This document shows, one piece after another, positions 10,585 to 25,706 of a stretch of DNA of 26,024 bases. Both the position numbers and the translations under genes were made by a program. The stretch spans positions 1 to 26,024 of IMG/VR virus record IMGVR_UViG_3300034523_000109; one strand, written 5' to 3'. Numbering within the stretch: the first letter of the stretch is position 1; the number at the start of each line of letters is the position of its first letter. This DNA is from a virus. The notes under the pieces are model-generated. The model saw nothing but the letters and a program-made list of their open reading frames with translations. It was not told where the DNA came from and searched no databases.

Positions 10585-11207
10585 CCGATCGCCCTCGTCA
10601 GACGGTGCTGCCGCCCAATAGCTCGCTGCTCGAGGTGGGTCTCGACCTGGCCTTCGATCAGATGCTCGAGCGGCTCGAGCCTCCCTTCCCTGAGCTGATG
10701 GACCCGCTTAAGACGCCGGCCGAGTTCCTGCCGTATCTGGCGGCGGATCGGGGCGTCGGCGAGTGGGAGTCGACGGCGGGGGAGGCTGAGAAGCGCGCGA
10801 CCGTGGCGAGCGCCTGGTCGGTCAAGCGCCTGGCCGGTACGCGCAAGGCCCTTGCGCTCGCGGTCGAGTCTCTCGGCCTGCTGCCCGAGGTGATCGCCTG
10901 GCACAAGGAGCAGCCACCCGGCAGCCCCTACAGCATCCGGGTAGTCGCTCGCGCCCTCGGCGCCTTCGACGCCGAGTCGAATCGACGCCTCGGGGTGCGC
11001 CTGGATGACGCCAAGGCCGAGCGCGACGTGCTCTCGCTCGACATTGTCAGCGAGGTACAGGGTCGCCTGTATTACGCCGCCGCAGTGAGCACCGGCAGCA
11101 CGACCACCGTTTACCCCTATTCCGAACGCGAGAGCGAAGTGCAGGGCCGCCTCTACTACGGCGCCGGCCTTGTCGAGATCTCGACTACTACGGTGTATCC
11201 GCAATGA
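10581..11207 (+). CDS. I: Tail protein, P2 gpI-like, with duplicated C-terminal segment
   Basis: 208 residues (P2 gpI 176). In P2-type tails gpI links the baseplate wedge to the side fibre. The N-terminal two-thirds (VLPPNSSLLEVGLDLAF, then the LAADRGVGEW region) match the family. Residues 157-179 and 185-207 are two copies of a unit starting SEVQGRLYY and ending STTTVYP. This extends the protein past the usual length next to the fibre-binding end. ATGA junctions couple it to J and to the fibre gene. Confidence 0.88.
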   Translation: MTDRPRQTVLPPNSSLLEVGLDLAFDQMLERLEPPFPELMDPLKTPAEFLPYLAADRGVGEWESTAGEAEKRATVASAWSVKRLAGTRKALALAVESLGLLPEVIAWHKEQPPGSPYSIRVVARALGAFDAESNRRLGVRLDDAKAERDVLSLDIVSEVQGRLYYAAAVSTGSTTTVYPYSERESEVQGRLYYGAGLVEISTTTVYPQ

Positions 11208-12628
11208 CGCCACAAGATCCGATCTACTCTCTGCCGACCAACGTCGGCGCGGCCAAGCTGGCTTATGCCCTGGCCAATCAGCTGACCGTCAATATCTCGC
11301 ACATGGCGCTCGGCGACGGCAACGGCGCCCCGGTCAACCCTACGGCGGCCGCTACGGCGCTTGTGCGCGAGGTTCACCGGGCGCAGCTCAATCAGCTGTA
11401 TCAGCACCAGGACAACCCTAATTGGCTCGTCGCCGAGCTCGTGCTGCCGGCCGAGGTCGGCGGCTGGACGATTCGCGAGATCGGCCTCTATGACGTCGAC
11501 GGCGCGCTGATCTTCGTCGGCAACCATGCCGAGCAATACAAGCCAATTCAGAGCCAGGGCAGCGACGAAACAAAGACGATCCGCATGGTGATCCTCGTCT
11601 CGAGTGTCGCGGCGGTGACCCTGAAAACCGACCCGTCGACGGTCATGGCGACGATCAAGTACGTCAACGACCGGACGCCAGCGGCGAGCGCCGCCGCGCC
11701 TGGCCTGGTCGCGCTCGCGACGGCTGCAGAGGTGCAGGCTGGCACGGATGCCGAGCGGGCGGTAACGCCTGCCGGCCTGGCTTCGCGCACGGCGACGGAT
11801 GCCCGCACGGGTCTGGTCGAGCTGGCAACTGACGCCGAGGTGCAGGCCGGCACTGATACGGCTCGAGCGGTGACTCCTGCCGGTCTGGCTTCGCGCACGG
11901 CAACGGAAACCCGCACCGGCGTTGTCGAGCTGGCAACCATCGCCGAGACGCAGACCGGGACGGACAGTCAGCGAGCGGTGACGCCTCTAGGCCTGGCTGC
12001 GCGCACGGCGACGGATACCCGCACGGGCCTGGTCGAGCTGGCGACTGACGCCGAGGTGCAGGCGGGCGCTGACACGACCCGCGCGATCACCCCGGCGGGC
12101 CTGGCTTCGAGGACCGCGACCGAGGCTCGCACGGGTCTGGTCGAGCTGGCTACGGCAGCCGAAGCGACGGCGGGCACTGACACTGCTCGGGCCGTTACGC
12201 CTGCAGGCCTGCGCGCCTTTATGTCTGGTCAGGTTTGCTTTCATGCCTACCCGTCTGCCGGCACGGCGCTGGCGGCGAATGTGAATAAGAAAATCACATA
12301 CGCGACTGAGCTTTTCGATATCGGCGGTTGCTTTGCGAACAGTCGATTTACCGCGCCGGCCGATGGAATTTATGAGTTCGTCGCCGCTGTGCATTTCACG
12401 AGTAACGGCAGCTCTGCCGACAATGGCGGGGTCGAGCTGTGGGTTAATGGTGCAGTGTCGCGCCGCATTGCCGAGTCTTTCGGTCCTCGAAATCAGCTTT
12501 CGGGAGAGAGCGGCCCCATGCTGCTTACGGCGGGGGATTACGTCGAGGTTTACGCCTGGACTGATATTGCCTGCACGACAAACCCATTCGGCGCCCTGAG
12601 TTATTTCAATGGTCGGAGGGTCGGCTAA
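11204..12628 (+). CDS. H: Tail fibre protein with 36-residue repeats and a C1q-like tip
   Basis: 474 residues. Residues 1-155 match the phage tail-collar fibre N-terminal domain (DUF3751 type; GWTIREIGLYDVDGALIFVG), which attaches to gpI. Residues about 163-340 hold five tandem units of 36 residues with the frame GLVELAT..AEVQAGTD..RAVTPAGL, a fibre shaft motif known in many phages. Residues about 341-474 have the pattern of a C1q/TNF-like jelly roll (FTAPADGIYEFVAAVHF) and likely form the receptor-binding tip. This tip is visibly lower in GC and in codon bias than the shaft, suggesting separate acquisition. Confidence 0.88.
   Translation: MTPQDPIYSLPTNVGAAKLAYALANQLTVNISHMALGDGNGAPVNPTAAATALVREVHRAQLNQLYQHQDNPNWLVAELVLPAEVGGWTIREIGLYDVDGALIFVGNHAEQYKPIQSQGSDETKTIRMVILVSSVAAVTLKTDPSTVMATIKYVNDRTPAASAAAPGLVALATAAEVQAGTDAERAVTPAGLASRTATDARTGLVELATDAEVQAGTDTARAVTPAGLASRTATETRTGVVELATIAETQTGTDSQRAVTPLGLAARTATDTRTGLVELATDAEVQAGADTTRAITPAGLASRTATEARTGLVELATAAEATAGTDTARAVTPAGLRAFMSGQVCFHAYPSAGTALAANVNKKITYATELFDIGGCFANSRFTAPADGIYEFVAAVHFTSNGSSADNGGVELWVNGAVSRRIAESFGPRNQLSGESGPMLLTAGDYVEVYAWTDIACTTNPFGALSYFNGRRVG
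11800..12220 (+). repeat. 108-bp tandem coding repeats in the fibre gene
   Basis: Near-identical units spaced 108 bases apart begin near 11800, 11908, 12016 and 12124, with a more diverged one starting near 11692. Each codes one 36-residue shaft unit. Such DNA repeats can recombine and alter fibre length. Confidence 0.75.
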
Positions 12629-19625: not shown

Positions 19626-20645
19626 ATGACAATCGGATTTACCCCGGCCGTCGAGATTTACGGTGCCAATGCGGCGCTGATCAACTCGCGGCTTGTGGAT
19701 TGGGAGCACGTCGACGCGGCCGGCGTCGAGTCTGATCAGCTCAAGCTGACGGTGAATATCGAGGGGCTCGAGGGCCTGCCGAGCGTCGACGGAAAGGTCG
19801 GGCTGCGCGTGGGCTACAAGGAGACCGGGCTCGTCGACAAGGGCGAGTTTGTGGTCACCCGCACGACCCCGCAGCTATTCCCGGCCCTGCTGCTGATCGT
19901 GGCCACGGCGGCACCGTTCAAGGTGAAGGACGAGACCGGCTTCAAGGCTCGTCGATCGGCGACCTACGCTATGACGACGCTCGGGCAGGTATTCCGCCAG
20001 CTCGCCGCGCGGCACGGCTTCTCGCCGCGCGTGGCGCCGGATCTCGACGCTATCCCGATCGTGCACGTCGACCAGTCGAACGAGACCGATATGGGCTTCC
20101 TGACGCGCCTCGCGAAGCGTTACGACGCGGTAACGAAGCCGGTCAACGATCTGTATGTGCTCGCGCGGCGCGGCCAGGTCAAGTCGCTGAGCGGCAAGCC
20201 GCTGCCCCCGGTGACCCTATCGGTCACGAAGGACAACAAGCCAGGCGAGCGGGCATTCATCGCGGCCAGTATCGACCAGGACAGCCGCGTCCGCTTCAAG
20301 GGCTGCAAAACGACCTGGTGGGACGGGAGCGCCGGCAAGGAGTGCGTCGTCGAGGTGGGCGAGGAGCCCTTTAAGTCGGTGCGCCAGCGCTACCAGAACG
20401 AGGCCGAGGCCAAGGCCGCCGCCGAAGGCCAGCACCGCAAGACGAAGCGCGAGGCGGCGAAGCTGCGGATCGACTGCCCCGGTAACCCGGCGCTCGGCGC
20501 CGAGGGCTTGCTCGTGCTCGACGATACCTGGCCGAGCTTCATGCGCGGCACCTGGTCGATCGACAAGGTGACCGCCAGCGGCAGCCGGCAGCAGAGTTAC
20601 CGCTGCACTATCGAGGCGACCTATCCAGAGGGTCGCGAAGCCTGA
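19626..20645 (+). CDS. D: Baseplate hub / late control protein, P2 gpD-like
   Basis: 339 residues (P2 gpD 387). gpD forms the baseplate hub linking the tube to the gpV spike. Family features include FTPAVEIYGANAALINSRL at the start, the LRVGYKETGLVDKGEF strand pair, TTLGQVFRQLAARHG, and HVDQSNETDMGFLTRLAKRYDA, the most conserved gpD segment. The C-terminal DDTWPSFMRGTWSIDKVTA completes the match. ATG 19626 follows GGGGGTAGG. It is the last gene of the structural block and is followed by a strong terminator. Confidence 0.93.
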   Translation: MTIGFTPAVEIYGANAALINSRLVDWEHVDAAGVESDQLKLTVNIEGLEGLPSVDGKVGLRVGYKETGLVDKGEFVVTRTTPQLFPALLLIVATAAPFKVKDETGFKARRSATYAMTTLGQVFRQLAARHGFSPRVAPDLDAIPIVHVDQSNETDMGFLTRLAKRYDAVTKPVNDLYVLARRGQVKSLSGKPLPPVTLSVTKDNKPGERAFIAASIDQDSRVRFKGCKTTWWDGSAGKECVVEVGEEPFKSVRQRYQNEAEAKAAAEGQHRKTKREAAKLRIDCPGNPALGAEGLLVLDDTWPSFMRGTWSIDKVTASGSRQQSYRCTIEATYPEGREA

Positions 20646-20646
20646 C

Positions 20647-20658
20647 GAGAGATCTCTC
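20647..20658. repeat. Perfect 12-bp palindrome after gene D
   Basis: GAGAGATCTCTC is its own reverse complement. It touches the base of the terminator stem that follows and overlaps its first C. It may be only an extension of that structure or a protein site. No function is known. Confidence 0.6.
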
Positions 20659-20686
20659 CCGCTGCCTCGTGCGGCGGGCTTTTTTT
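20658..20686 (+). terminator. Strong terminator of the structural block
   Basis: CCCGCTGC pairs with GCGGCGGG (one G-T pair) around CTCGT and is followed by C and seven T. It ends late transcription four bases before the first promoter-leader module begins. Confidence 0.9.
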
Positions 20687-20690
20687 GTGT

Positions 20691-20718
20691 TTGACAATAC
20701 GCGGAAACCGCGTATTAT
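20691..20718 (+). promoter_or_regulatory. Promoter 1 with operator inside the spacer
   Basis: A consensus -35 TTGACA (20691-20696), a 16-base spacer and -10 TATTAT (20713-20718). The spacer is filled by an inverted repeat with 9-base arms AATACGCGG and CCGCGTATT around AAA (20696-20716). A repressor bound there would block RNA polymerase directly. This is the clearest sigma70 promoter seen in the window. Confidence 0.85.
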
Positions 20719-20768
20719 TGACCACACAAAACGACGCGCCTCGGTCTGTCAGGGGCTGGTGATAAACG
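20691..20768 (+). repeat. 78-bp promoter-leader repeat, copy 1
   Basis: This stretch runs from the -35 box to the base before ATG. It is 76/78 identical to 21204-21281. The two differences are the last base of the -35 box (A here, G in copy 2) and one base just after the -10. The transcribed leader of about 45 bases is identical, can form a weak GCCTC/GGGGC stem (20738-20756), and has no well-placed Shine-Dalgarno sequence. Confidence 0.9.
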
Positions 20769-21161
20769 ATGACTCTCAATACCTACCGCGTGCATGTGAT
20801 CGAAAAGCAATGGGGCGGCTTCGAGGCTGACTTCTGGGCCTACGCAGACGGCGCCAGCGAGGCCGAGGCGATCGCCGCTGTCGAGGCCCGCTGCAGCGCC
20901 TGGCGCGCTGATCGCGTCGAGCTGTTCGCCGAGGGCGTGGTCAAGGCCGACGTCGTGCCGGCGGCTGCAGAGCTGCTCGAGGAGCTCGAGCGCTTCGGCG
21001 AGGTGCGGCAAGGTGGCTGCGTGCTCAAGCGCCGCGCTGATCAGTTCGTCATGTACCGCGAGCGCAACGTCTTCGACCGTCACCAGCTCGCGGCCTGCGC
21101 GACCGACGCGGTCAGGCTCGAGGCCCACTGGCGCGGGTTTGTTGAATCGAGGCGCGCGTAG
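20769..21161 (+). CDS. Unknown accessory protein of the first leader cassette
   Basis: 130 residues, family not recognised. It appears soluble and mixed alpha/beta: TYRVHVIEKQWGGFEADFWAY looks like beta strands, ASEAEAIAAVEARCSAW a helix, then AAAELLEELERFGE another helix. It starts right after the first promoter-leader and ends 11 bases before a strong terminator, so it forms a single-gene transcription unit under the palindromic operator. The codon use (high GC at third positions) matches the phage, so it is probably a real gene. No function is assigned. Confidence 0.65.
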   Translation: MTLNTYRVHVIEKQWGGFEADFWAYADGASEAEAIAAVEARCSAWRADRVELFAEGVVKADVVPAAAELLEELERFGEVRQGGCVLKRRADQFVMYRERNVFDRHQLAACATDAVRLEAHWRGFVESRRA

Positions 21162-21172
21162 GTCGGTGCCAG

Positions 21173-21201
21173 GCCCCGGCGAGATCCGGGGCTATTTTTT
21201 T
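21173..21201 (+). terminator. Terminator of the first leader cassette
   Basis: GCCCCGG and CCGGGGC pair around CGAGAT, followed by TA and seven T. Its T-run ends two bases before the -35 box of the second promoter copy, making a compact terminator-promoter unit like the one at 20658-20718. Confidence 0.92.
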
Positions 21202-21203
21202 GC

Positions 21204-21231
21204 TTGACGATACGCGGAAACCGCGTATTAT
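21204..21231 (+). promoter_or_regulatory. Promoter 2 with operator inside the spacer
   Basis: -35 TTGACG (21204-21209), a 16-base spacer and -10 TATTAT (21226-21231), with the inverted repeat ATACGCGG/CCGCGTAT around AAA at 21210-21228. The -35 is one base weaker than in copy 1 and the outermost operator pair is lost, so basal strength and repression may differ slightly. Confidence 0.83.
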
Positions 21232-21281
21232 TGGCCACACAAAACGACGCGCCTCGGTCTGTCAGGGGCTGGTGATAAACG
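21204..21281 (+). repeat. 78-bp promoter-leader repeat, copy 2
   Basis: Second copy of the 78-bp module at 20691-20768, again ending at the base before a start codon. Flanking and coding sequences are unrelated between copies, so only the control region was duplicated or conserved. Confidence 0.9.
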
Positions 21282-21521
21282 ATGAATGCAAGCCAACTGA
21301 TCCAATCCATGCGCGCCCGCGTTGCCTCGCTGAGCCTGCCGCAGATCCTCGAGGCCTTCGAGCAGACCAATGCGCTGCAGGGCGACGAGGTGCCGACCGT
21401 GCGCGGGGTGCTGATGGACGAGCTCGAGCGCCGCGACGAGGCCGCCTTCTCGGCATGGATGGAAACCGCAGACGTCGCGCTGATGGATACCCCGACCCAC
21501 TTCTACCGCGCCGCCCTCTGA
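21282..21521 (+). CDS. Unknown small helical protein of the second leader cassette
   Basis: 79 residues, mostly helical (ASQLIQSMRARVASLSLPQILEAFEQT). The part VRGVLMDELERRDEAAFSAWME resembles short proteins often found on plasmids and integrative elements, whose function is not established. It is the first gene after promoter 2 and is followed after 25 bases by an XRE-like regulator. No catalytic motif is seen. Confidence 0.62.
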   Translation: MNASQLIQSMRARVASLSLPQILEAFEQTNALQGDEVPTVRGVLMDELERRDEAAFSAWMETADVALMDTPTHFYRAAL

Positions 21522-21546
21522 GGGCGGCACCTCTCGAGGGCCTACG

Positions 21547-21783
21547 ATGGCAAACCACCCGAACCGAGGCGCCGGCGGCGCCTCTGCTAACCCCAAGCCC
21601 GAGCAGATCCTCGAGGCACGCAATGCGGCCGGCCTGACGCAGACGCAGGCGGCCGACCTGGTGCACTCGACCTGCAGGCGCTGGCAGGAGTGGGAGGCGG
21701 GCGACTACCGCATGCACCCCGGCCTATTCGAGCTGTTCCAGCTCAAGACGCGGCAGATCAAGCTGCCGAAGGCGGCGCAATGA
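21547..21783 (+). CDS. Small XRE/Cro-like DNA-binding protein
   Basis: 78 residues. Residues about 18-65 (PEQILEARNAAGLTQTQAADLVH then RRWQEWEAGDYRMHPGLFELFQL) form a helix-turn-helix of the XRE/Cro kind: the LTQTQAADL scaffold, a recognition helix around STCRRWQEWE, and the trailing ELFQL helix. The N-terminus is basic and disordered. It is the second gene of the promoter 2 cassette, so it is a candidate for the protein that reads the palindromic operator in both promoters, though this is inference. It overlaps the next gene by ATGA. Confidence 0.75.
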   Translation: MANHPNRGAGGASANPKPEQILEARNAAGLTQTQAADLVHSTCRRWQEWEAGDYRMHPGLFELFQLKTRQIKLPKAAQ

Positions 21784-21884
21784 CGCTCGCTCTCCCGGTC
21801 TTCGACCTGCTCCTCGTGGCGCCGATCGCGCTCGGGTGCTTCGTGCTGGGCGCCCTCGTCGGCTACGCATCGCGGCGCGCCTGA
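21780..21884 (+). CDS. 34-residue membrane microprotein
   Basis: The frame opens at the ATGA junction with the XRE-like gene and codes 34 residues: a short lead, a single hydrophobic segment (LLLVAPIALGCFVLGALVGY, residues 10-29) and a positive end SRRA. The tight coupling and the bidirectional terminator 12 bases later support a real gene. A small inner-membrane protein is likely. Function unknown. Confidence 0.5.
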   Translation: MTLALPVFDLLLVAPIALGCFVLGALVGYASRRA

Positions 21885-21895
21885 TCAGCTGCAAA

Positions 21896-21935
21896 AAGAA
21901 AGCCCCCACTGCCTCGCGGCGGTGGGGGCTTTCTT
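21896..21935. terminator. Bidirectional terminator between converging genes
   Basis: Perfect 14-base arms, AAGAAAGCCCCCAC and GTGGGGGCTTTCTT, around a 12-base loop, with A-rich left and T-rich right flanks. It lies between plus-strand genes ending at 21884 and a minus-strand gene ending at 21947, so it can stop transcription from both sides. Confidence 0.9.
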
Positions 21936-21946
21936 CGTTTCTGGCT

Positions 21947-22315
21947 CTAGCCCTGGCGCAGGATCTCGTCGGGCATGCTGGGCGGTCGCGCTCGATCCTG
22001 GCTGACCTCTGGTAGGCCCTGCAGCTGCTCGGCCGGCACCTTGGCCAGGCGCTCGAGGAGCTCGAGGGCGTTGCCGTTCGCCGAGATCCACACGCCCTCG
22101 CGCTGCAGCCAGACGCTTGCCGTCGCGCCGTTTAGGTAGCGGCAGACGCCCCAGCGCTCGCCGAGGTGGCGCCGGATCTTGCAATCGACGGCCAGGCCTG
22201 CGCGGTCGTTGAGGATCTCGAGGCCGCGTGCGTCTTTGTTGACCAGGTCGACGGCCAGGGCGCCGAGGATGCCGGCGAGGGCGATGCCGCCGATCGCCTT
22301 GGTGGTTTTCTTCAT
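21947..22315 (-). CDS. Unknown membrane-anchored or exported small protein
   Basis: 122 residues, not recognised. The N-terminus KKTTKAIGGIALAGILGALAVDL is a positively charged lead and a hydrophobic stretch, either a signal peptide or an anchor. There is no lipobox. The rest contains two cysteines (DCKIRRHLGERWGVCRYLNG), which could form a disulphide in the periplasm, and a small beta segment (SVWLQREGVWI). GGAG lies upstream of ATG 22315. A minus-strand terminator stands between it and the operon upstream, so it probably has its own weak promoter or uses read-through. Confidence 0.6.
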   Translation of the reverse strand: MKKTTKAIGGIALAGILGALAVDLVNKDARGLEILNDRAGLAVDCKIRRHLGERWGVCRYLNGATASVWLQREGVWISANGNALELLERLAKVPAEQLQGLPEVSQDRARPPSMPDEILRQG

Positions 22316-22357
22316 GCTGCGCGCTTCTCCTTTTGCGGTGGCGGCGCGCAGGGTAAC

Positions 22358-22383
22358 AAAAAGCCCGCCGAGGGGGCGGGCTT
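22358..22383 (-). terminator. Minus-strand terminator of the par-methyltransferase operon
   Basis: Arms AAGCCCGCC and GGCGGGCTT around five bases. On the minus strand the stem is followed by a run of five T. It stands 30 bases after the stop of the repeat-protein gene, ending the eight-gene minus operon. Confidence 0.88.
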
Positions 22384-22412
22384 GTGGGGCTGGCTACATG
22401 GTCGCGCCCCTC

Positions 22413-22778
22413 CTAGGGCTCGTCGCGCCTGCTGTCGTTGTCGAGGTCGCGGTCGCTGCCGCCGTAGTGGTAGTCGCGCCGGCGATCGTTGTCGAGATCT
22501 CGGTCGCTGCCGCCCTGGTCGGCGTCGCGCCTGCTGTCGTTGTCGAGGTCTCTATCGCTGCCGCCGAAGGCCGCGTCGCGCCGGCCGTCGTTGTCGAGGT
22601 CTCTATCGCTGCCGCCGAAAGCCGCGTCGCGCCGCCCGTCGTTGTCGAGGTCGCGGTCTGCGCCCCCGCAGGAGGCATCGCGGCGCCCGTCGTTGTCGAG
22701 GTCGCAGTCGCTGGCCGGGGCAGCGCCGGCGAGCAGCGCCAGGGTGGCCGCGATCGCCGCTATGATTGCTCGTTTCAT
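22413..22778 (-). CDS. Secreted DxDNDxxxD-repeat protein
   Basis: 121 residues. Residues 1-23 (KRAIIAAIAATLALLAGAAPAS) are a clear signal peptide, with cleavage expected after a small residue near 20-23. The whole mature part is six 17-residue repeats with the frame DRDLDNDGRRDAAFGGS, the last cut short. The D-x-D-N-D-x-x-x-D spacing is that of calcium-binding loops in thrombospondin type 3, dockerin and similar repeats. Extracytoplasmic Ca2+ binding is therefore likely but not shown. The first repeat has two cysteines (DCDLDND, ASCGG). The start overlaps the previous gene (ATGA) and has AAAGGAG upstream. The family is not recognised. Confidence 0.7.
   Translation of the reverse strand: MKRAIIAAIAATLALLAGAAPASDCDLDNDGRRDASCGGADRDLDNDGRRDAAFGGSDRDLDNDGRRDAAFGGSDRDLDNDSRRDADQGGSDRDLDNDRRRDYHYGGSDRDLDNDSRRDEP
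22416..22709 (-). repeat. 51-bp coding tandem repeats
   Basis: Six copies of a 51-base unit coding the 17-residue calcium-loop repeat, the last incomplete. Neighbouring central copies are almost identical in DNA, pointing to recent expansion or gene conversion. Confidence 0.85.
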
Positions 22779-24661: not shown

Positions 24662-24967
24662 TTACTTCCCGAGCCGATCCAGTCGGCGGCGAAGCTCCTC
24701 GAGGTCGTCGACCTTGAACTTTCCCTCCCCCGACTTGTACTTCTCGAAAAGATCGTCGATCGCCTCGAGCAGCAGGTACTTAACCGGCGTGCTCTCGACG
24801 GTCAGGTTTTTAATGTCCTGCAGGCCCTGGTGATAGTGCGGCGGGGCGAGCAGCGGGATTTTCTTCTCGGGCTGGTCGCTGGAGACGGCCGCGCGGGCCT
24901 TCTCGACGTGGGCCGCCGCGCCGGTATCGGCTCCGCGCTTGCTGGGGCGCTGTGCGGTAAGGCTCAT
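24662..24967 (-). CDS. Putative centromere-binding partner of ParA
   Basis: 101 residues, directly after parA and overlapping it by ATGA, the normal place for the ParB/ParG-type partner. The first 45 residues are basic, Pro/Ala-rich and disordered, as in many small partition adaptors where this tail stimulates the ATPase. The second half (DIKNLTVESTPVKYLLLEAI, then LFEKYKSGEGKFKV and a Leu/Arg helix) has the short-strand plus two-helix plan of small ribbon-helix-helix-like proteins. The sequence match to a named family is not firm. It is the best candidate to bind the 8-bp arrays. Confidence 0.55.
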   Translation of the reverse strand: MSLTAQRPSKRGADTGAAAHVEKARAAVSSDQPEKKIPLLAPPHYHQGLQDIKNLTVESTPVKYLLLEAIDDLFEKYKSGEGKFKVDDLEELRRRLDRLGK

Positions 24968-25611
24968 TTCAGCACCTCGAGCACTTCACTGGTCAGGGCT
25001 TCGACTTCGGCGCGAGCCGGATCATCGGCGCGCAGATCCATGACGCTAAGGCCTTTTACGACCCCGCCGACGTATGCCTGCCGCTGATGGGTGCGCGCCT
25101 TGAGGATTGGCAGCCCGAGCTCTGCGATTGCGCCCTCGATCTCGCGCGCCAGCACCGTGCCCGGCACCGCTCTGGCGACCATCATCACGCCGGCCGGCTT
25201 CCCGTCTGCGATCTCCTGCCGGTCCTTCACCAGCTGCACCAGGTCGCCGCATGCCCAAATGTCGTAGGGGCTGGGCTGCACGGGGATGATTACCAGGTCG
25301 GCGACCTTGATCGCGGCGGCCGACAGCTCGCTAACCTGCGGCACGCCGTCGATCACAACGAAGTCGAAGTCGCCCGCGACGCGCGGTAGGTCGCGTGCCA
25401 GTTGCTTGCCCATGGCGACGACGGGGACGTGCCAGGCGACGTCGTTGCCCTCCTGCGCGGCCGCCCAATCGGTCGCCGATCCTTGGTCGTGGTTAAGGTC
25501 AACGACCATAACCGAGAAGCCCCGCGAGGCGATGCAAGCGGCAAGGTTTGTCGAGGTGGTGGTCTTCGTGGTGCCGCCTTTCTGGTTCAGCACCGAGATT
25601 ATTTTCGGCAT
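24964..25611 (-). CDS. parA: ParA-family partition ATPase
   Basis: 215 residues, the length of small ParF-type ATPases without an N-terminal DNA-binding domain. Deviant Walker A KGGTTKTT (11-18), the A' region MVVDLNHDQGSATDW (34-48), and Walker B FDFVVIDGVP (81-90) are in place; a Thr replaces the usual Gly at residue 15. It segregates plasmid copies together with a small partner and a centromere. Start 25611 has AGGAG nine bases upstream; the longer frame to 25704 crosses the promoter array. Its presence implies that the prophage is maintained as a plasmid. Confidence 0.92.
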   Translation of the reverse strand: MPKIISVLNQKGGTTKTTTSTNLAACIASRGFSVMVVDLNHDQGSATDWAAAQEGNDVAWHVPVVAMGKQLARDLPRVAGDFDFVVIDGVPQVSELSAAAIKVADLVIIPVQPSPYDIWACGDLVQLVKDRQEIADGKPAGVMMVARAVPGTVLAREIEGAIAELGLPILKARTHQRQAYVGGVVKGLSVMDLRADDPARAEVEALTSEVLEVLK

Positions 25612-25651
25612 TGCGTGTGCTCCTGGTGGTGGTTGCTTATCAGCAGGGGTA

Positions 25652-25680
25652 AGAATAGGAACAAAAGAACAAAAGATCAA
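25652..25680 (-). promoter_or_regulatory. Candidate parA promoter within the octamer array
   Basis: On the minus strand, TTGATC (25675-25680) and TATTCT (25652-25657) are separated by 17 bases. Both boxes lie on octamer units, so a protein bound to the array would control parA. Small Par systems often autoregulate this way. Confidence 0.55.
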
Positions 25681-25706
25681 TAGGACATAGGAACAAAAGA
25701 ACATAA
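25659..25706 (-). repeat. 8-bp tandem repeat array before parA (candidate centromere/operator)
   Basis: Plus-strand octamers in sequence: GAACAAAA, GAACAAAA, GATCAATA, GGACATAG, GAACAAAA, GAACATAA. Read toward parA they are TTTTGTTC units. In small ParA systems the centromere lies upstream of parA and consists of such short repeats. The same unit, in the same orientation to the downstream gene, makes up the array at 171-218 before terS. Confidence 0.7.

Follow-up and report, generated by a model that had tools for sequence, protein, structure and literature searches.

A duplicated promoter-operator-leader module ahead of small phage genes, a candidate Aca10-family repressor and an N-terminal tag associated with the leader

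The phage sequence analysed here, a whole IMG/VR virus record of 26,024 bases (the window), carries two nearly identical promoter-operator-leader modules, each placed directly ahead of a different small gene, and behind them a gene for a helix-turn-helix (HTH) protein of the Aca10 family, which consists of anti-CRISPR-associated repressors; this protein begins with a short NHPNR tag. We think it probable that the HTH controls the two promoters, as its homology indicates, and that the leader RNA is the target of the tag, as suggested by the association between the two. Each module may be read as a self-contained unit made up of a strong sigma70 promoter, an Aca10-type operator in the promoter spacer, a leader and one small cargo gene. 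Because operator, leader and start codon form one piece, new genes could come under the same control by gaining the module.

The modules occupy positions 20691-20768 and 21204-21281 and, in agreement with the duplication described in a sequence-only reading of this DNA, a position-wise comparison gave 76 identical bases out of 78, with a drop to at most 7/10 in the flanking 10-base bins. A repeat finder recovered the same pair as a repeat family (D4; 97 nt, 95%), and the whole record has these two copies and no third. Searching 20560-21960 for sigma70-like promoters returned two against 0.1 expected, one per module and no others: TTGACA-N16-TATTAT at 20691-20718 (+ strand, 11/12 matches, spacer 16) and TTGACG-N16-TATTAT at 21204-21231 (+ strand, 10/12 matches, spacer 16). 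Both modules lie directly behind a terminator, as had been noticed, since hairpins of the intrinsic type with a T run are found on the + strand at 20658-20685 (stem 20658-20678) and at 21172-21200 (stem 21172-21193), and both end exactly at a start codon, the ATG at 20769 and that at 21282. The promoter spacer had also been described as an inverted repeat; a perfect repeat, ATACGCGG-AAA-CCGCGTAT, does fill the 16-bp spacer, but its extent is larger than was thought, with 8+8 paired bases over 19 bp that overlap the -10 box by 3 bases at its start. This is the operator, an Aca10-type palindrome at 20697-20715 in module 1 (ATACGCGGAAACCGCGTAT) and an identical 19-bp palindrome at 21210-21228 in module 2. 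The leader cores follow on the + strand at 20735-20756 (CGCGCCTCGGTCTGTCAGGGGC, with a possible GCCUC/GGGGC stem) and 21248-21269. The earlier statement that the leader has no good ribosome site was wrong: by sequence inspection GGTGAT, which we take to be a 6-base complement of the 3' tail of 16S rRNA (anti-SD), is present on the + strand at 20758-20763 and 21271-21276, 5 bases 5' of each ATG, and modules of sister phages have GGAG at the same place.

Named phages had no match to 20640-21300. The hits of the module alone, in Ackermannviridae and others, reach a best E of 0.7 at 42% cover, which is chance level, and similarity to named phages was rejected. Relatives of the arrangement were found in Pseudomonas prophages, whose three closest loci have one to three modules each with the cargo swapped and reordered. 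The locus from P. cuatrocienegasensis (L006, the same as L020) has three modules and the cargo MQIL, MKSIY and a relative of cargo 2; L004 has MQIL and MRIL, MKSIY and a relative of cargo 2; and L019 has MKSIY and one further short frame ahead of the repressor gene. The same module thus stands before other small genes and in other orders in related Pseudomonas loci, which bears out the suggestion of a reusable cassette. Random variation of operator and leader alongside conserved genes had been named as the pattern that would speak against such a cassette, and the sister loci have the opposite pattern. More widely, at least two same-strand leaders lie within 2.5 kb of each other in 12 loci, one of them that of the window; in 10 of these 12 the leaders have a tagged gene between or after them.

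The genes behind the two modules of the window are unrelated, as had been claimed. Cargo gene 1 (20769-21161, + strand, 130 aa) gave no relative in IMG/VR and no family match. Cargo gene 2 (21282-21521, + strand, 79 aa) has relatives in two sister phages, where they occupy the equivalent position, and on three further viral contigs, with no match among named phages. Since neither leader nor tag is visible in the DNA examined around the relatives on those three IMG/VR contigs (L374-L376), cargo 2 is not tied to the module. Neither cargo fits any known family, and the family search identified no proven acr gene. Judged by position, the cargo is probably counter-defence, a role that is a guess because neither protein matches a known family.

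The rest of the record contains terminase, portal, head, sheath and baseplate genes together with a ParA-like partition protein (24964-25704, - strand) that suggests a phage-plasmid lifestyle; short direct repeats of the AGGAACAAAAGAACA kind at 25655-25706, beside the ParA-like gene, have an iteron-like look. Tandem 51-bp repeats at 22351-22758 (- strand) seem to encode an acidic DRDLDND-type repeat, reminiscent of calcium-binding repeats, and four 108-bp repeats (11702-12241) lie within the tail fibre gene at 11204-12628.

The XRE-like gene near the modules had been proposed as a candidate repressor, and its family assignment strengthens that proposal. The gene (21547-21783, + strand) encodes a 78-aa protein with the N-terminus MANHPNRG, and phmmer aligned it to the P. 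citronellolis Aca10 structure 7XI5 over 58 residues covering the HTH with an E of 6.7e-22. Aca10 was named as the regulator adjoining acrIC7 in PMC7913775. According to PMC9410881, the Pseudomonas citronellolis protein (7XI5) binds ATACGCTCATTGAGCGTAT, which lies inside its own TTGCAA-N16-TATTCT promoter, the same spacer position as the palindromes of the window. An Aca family survey likewise describes inverted repeats in core promoters and the repression of cognate promoters in a reporter screen (PMC9410906). From these parallels in sequence, repression of both modules by the 21547-21783 protein appears well supported.

Residues Q22, R34 and Q37 of Aca10 are conserved in the window protein, where they align to Q32, R44 and Q47. 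At the place of Aca10 Arg44 the window protein and its clade have Tyr, and PMC9410881 describes Arg44 as the most critical residue and reports that R44Y abolishes binding by P. citronellolis Aca10. Arg44 is a functional residue of one member of Aca10, not a definition of the family. With Tyr at this place, the predicted binding of the operator by the window protein must use other contacts. The operator itself agrees with the published 19-bp site in the six outermost bases at either end (ATACGC...GCGTAT), and its centre is GGAAACC compared with TCATTGA in the P. citronellolis site; this altered centre is the sole argument that a Tyr44 protein may still bind.

To survey operators across the family, we drew Aca10 relatives from IMG/VR (one IMG/VR set being 80 of 357), from one genome per species and from plasmids, and in the 121 distinct loci that offered 300 or more bases of upstream DNA we sought an ATACG-N9-CGTAT-like palindrome within 1.5 kb upstream, with at least 8/10 outer matches and an outer plus inner score of at least 11. 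Such a palindrome was present in 66 of these loci, where dinucleotide shuffles led us to expect 2.8; the window locus has one of the ATACG-N9-CGTAT form within the core promoter upstream, and a Klebsiella plasmid has the published Aca10 site letter for letter. The excess over shuffles and this exact site indicate that the fit between Aca10 family and palindrome is general. On two Klebsiella plasmids (L016, L017) the exact published operator lies about 530 bases upstream of an untagged Aca10-relative HTH gene and precedes one gene of unknown function, with umuD and parM genes nearby.

We compared residue 44 with the operator centre in 42 loci (37 Arg44, 4 Tyr44 and 1 Ala44). The centre was CAATG, CATTG or CAGTG in 36 of the 37 Arg44 loci, the remaining site (L040) being doubtful, and GGAAACC in all four Tyr44 loci, which include the window and belong to one clade. 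A further locus outside this count, L071, combines His44 with a GGAAACC centre. From this pattern, which represents few independent events, we predict that operator recognition in the window clade depends on contacts that do not involve Arg44. Nine loci (L026, L027, L059, L073, L078, L086, L098, L133 and L138) read KARMHP, IARMHP or a similar string where Arg44 would stand, typically with CACGGAATCCGTG-type sites, and might form a third recognition class. The window-type operator pattern occurs in only 3 of 398 Pseudomonas genomes, two of these hits being known Aca10 loci themselves, and a host regulator as the ligand of the palindrome, in place of a phage protein, is for this reason barely conceivable. 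Of 399 genomes from the family to which the Variovorax locus L022 belongs, 2 contain a stricter leader pattern, and the system seems, on these genome counts, to be largely confined to mobile elements.

Identical leaders had been taken as a hint of RNA-level control, and that hint has gained weight, as conservation of the leader core extends to many other phages and a covarying hairpin precedes it in relatives. Searched alone, the core, CGCGCCTCGG..CAGGGGC, occurs in at least 120 IMG/VR stretches. Most Aca10 loci that bear NHPNR have ACCGCGCCTCGGG-n-CAGGGGCTGGAG or a near variant before the first cargo start codon; it is kept irrespective of which cargo follows, and in many cases the operator is another one. 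The window together with seven loci gave no Rfam match above the gathering score, and in 20600-21900 only chance-level ones. A covariance model built from 68 leaders gave 73 matches at E of at most 0.05 in 81 chosen sources from the protein-first loci, mostly tagged. The modules of the window are the weakest matches to this model, at about 17 bits and E of about 0.01-0.02 (20702-20764, 17.3 bits, in module 1 and 21215-21277, 17.1 bits, in module 2).

Directly 5' of the core, a hairpin with a score of at least 6 was found in 66 of 141 non-redundant leaders, compared with 5.9% of shuffled and 5.9% of arm-swapped controls. Its arms vary between phages yet pair, that is, they covary. RNAalifold on A3 did not detect this hairpin, whose loop is not of constant length and whose arms are displaced by the aligner, and the arm-swap test was used for that reason. 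The covarying hairpin is absent from the two leaders of the window, and the non-canonical Aca10 leaders have no clear hairpin excess (9/20 at a score of at least 5 vs 32%). The core stem GCCUC/GGGGC is paired in 99.2% of cells among 73 leaders from protein-first loci with nearly no variation, and with hardly any variation there is almost no covariation, so that its structure is unproven. A core hairpin that hides the ribosome site is not claimed, mean pairing being 0.49 vs 0.45 in controls (n=130 leaders). Two leader classes were seen among the 141: CC before the core goes with GGGG after it (49/50), and the second class has mostly AC or GC before the core, with GGG.

The exchange of cargo between sister loci whose modules stay alike could also arise if the module served mainly as a recombination target for cargo swaps and regulation were secondary. 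We regard this as highly improbable. Against it, the 5' hairpin of relatives has arms that covary and are not kept identical, the Aca10 form of the operators persists although the centre changes with the protein, and distant phages have only the functional parts in common.

The leader is also linked to a protein tag. Tagged Aca10 relatives start with M-x-NHPNR or nearly so. Among 120 Aca10 loci, 59 had both the tag and the leader by a strict leader pattern, 18 the tag only, none the leader only and 43 neither (Fisher 1.9e-18, a value that ignores kinship). When the leader model was applied later, 8 of these 18 tag-only loci proved to have a variant leader (E below 0.005; L146 at 0.026), and the model gave a match in 2 (L035 and L046) of the 9 untagged loci on which it was run, out of the 43. 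In the P. citronellolis locus (L028) the protein is untagged and the leader is of another type.

Starting from the leader, we found among the stretches listed an NHPNR-type ORF within 2.5 kb downstream on the same strand in 59 of the 84 loci with room, as against 1/84 antisense and 2/85 upstream; no tagged ORF was found in the other 25 of these 84. Starting from the tag, 113 stretches yielded 99 distinct tagged ORFs after four short frames were dropped, and 96 once three without upstream room were set aside. A leader lay within 1.5 kb upstream in 84 of these 96 (47 by the strict pattern), compared with 3/96 downstream and 4/96 antisense, and in 57 of the 84 the distance from its end to the tagged gene itself was 10-16 bases. 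An HTH motif is present in only 3 of the 96 proteins. With the tag removed, the bodies of 93 of these proteins fell into 58 families by blastp, 53 of them with at least one leader. All synonymous codons for NHPNR are used across 108 distinct ORFs, which indicates that selection acts on the protein sequence of the tag. Ten tagged proteins were scanned, with one Pfam match (DUF6948) and none in PHROGs. The largest HTH-less tagged family comprises 25 proteins, including those of L173, L174, L185, L209 and L263, and the member tested gave DUF6948.

From these distributions, common descent of one operon cannot explain why tag and leader occur together across dozens of proteins that are unrelated to one another. 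The association would be accounted for most simply by an action of the tag on the leader. In loci such as the window, where the leader precedes another gene and the tagged gene follows further on, a purely cis effect of the nascent chain is unlikely. Alternatively, the Aca10 homologue might control the promoter and this might be the whole of the regulation, with the leader merely an efficient or stable 5' UTR and the tag doing an unrelated job, for example in stability or dimer contacts. This is in keeping with promoter repression as the established Aca mechanism, and with the lack of the 5' hairpin in the leaders of the window. Against it, the leader accompanies the tag in 53 of 58 unrelated families, almost all HTH-less, and is missing under the strict pattern from all 43 untagged Aca10 loci (2 of the 9 given to the leader model did match it), and we consider it unlikely. 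We tentatively propose, as something a little short of probable, that leader core and NHPNR tag form a portable cis-trans pair for RNA-level feedback, with the tag on at least 58 unrelated bodies. A phage gene would come under this feedback once the leader stands ahead of it and a tagged protein is fused to it or encoded along with it, and Aca10 would thereby have come to regulate cassette arrays at two levels, DNA and RNA.

If the tag acts on the leader, its effect could be negative or positive. The lambda N peptide pairs with the boxB hairpin, and the resemblance to the present pair, in which the N-terminal tag is short and basic and the leader is small, bears a hairpin and lies close to the transcript's 5' end, suggests that the NHPNR protein might open the leader or alter transcription elongation. 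The likeness is limited in that the NHPNR protein bodies are unrelated to one another. Such positive action seems quite unlikely to us, as the leader ends at the ribosome site and is not free within the transcript, and the tagged Aca10 proteins are members of a repressor family. Repression is favoured over activation on the same two points, namely the membership of the HTH bodies in a family of autorepressors and the end of the leader at the ribosome site.

Taken as repression at both levels, the mechanism that we favour would run as follows. The Aca10-family protein would be made from module 2, behind cargo 2, and as a dimer it would bind both palindromes and shut both promoters, and with them its own synthesis. 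Cargo might accordingly be made in a burst on entry or induction and then be repressed. The N-terminal tag would most probably act on the leader adjoining the ribosome site as a second, RNA-level layer, and the window protein would thus combine two activities, the HTH for the operator and the tag for the leader.

Parts of this arrangement have counterparts elsewhere. Aca2, which reportedly represses anti-CRISPR expression by binding both DNA and RNA (Birkholz 2024), offers an analogy, an HTH repressor thought to act at both promoter and mRNA leader. The sequence match between Aca2 and the window protein is weak (E 0.05-0.3), and unlike in Aca2 the RNA candidate here is a separate N-terminal tag that is found on non-HTH proteins too. 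In a comparison with an Aca2-type system, the leader core is conserved and the 5' hairpin covaries in relatives, whereas the window lacks the hairpin and the core pairs hardly vary. The acrIC7-acrIC6-aca10 locus of P. citronellolis is alike in its HTH family, in the 19-bp palindrome within a sigma70 spacer and in the small genes upstream of the repressor; it differs in having one promoter and one operon, whereas each cargo of the window has its own module. The window protein further differs from P. citronellolis Aca10 in its NHPNR tag and Tyr44, in an operator centre of GGAAACC, not TCATTGA, and in its other leader type. In SIRV2 and other archaeal viruses, according to PMC11065993, anti-defence genes share an early regulatory sequence together with Aca8. 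That case is alike in that one regulatory sequence is repeated before many single small genes under a presumed Aca repressor; it differs in its archaeal promoter, and the passages of PMC11065993 considered here do not describe a leader RNA or tag.

Promoter control by Aca10 is already known, as is one regulatory sequence before many anti-defence genes in archaeal viruses. For the tag or leader sequence in the present sense, the open-access literature returned only unrelated texts, which is weak evidence given that most subscription papers lie outside it. If the account is correct, phages could add or swap small accessory genes without rewiring, since promoter, operator, leader and start codon would move as one unit controlled by a single repressor. 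How Aca10 recognizes DNA becomes a directly testable question through the natural Tyr44 clade, which has an operator centre of its own. The association of leader and tag hints at a control layer that has not been described, and if it holds, the two together would provide a domain-independent handle on unknown phage accessory genes, many of which may be counter-defence genes.
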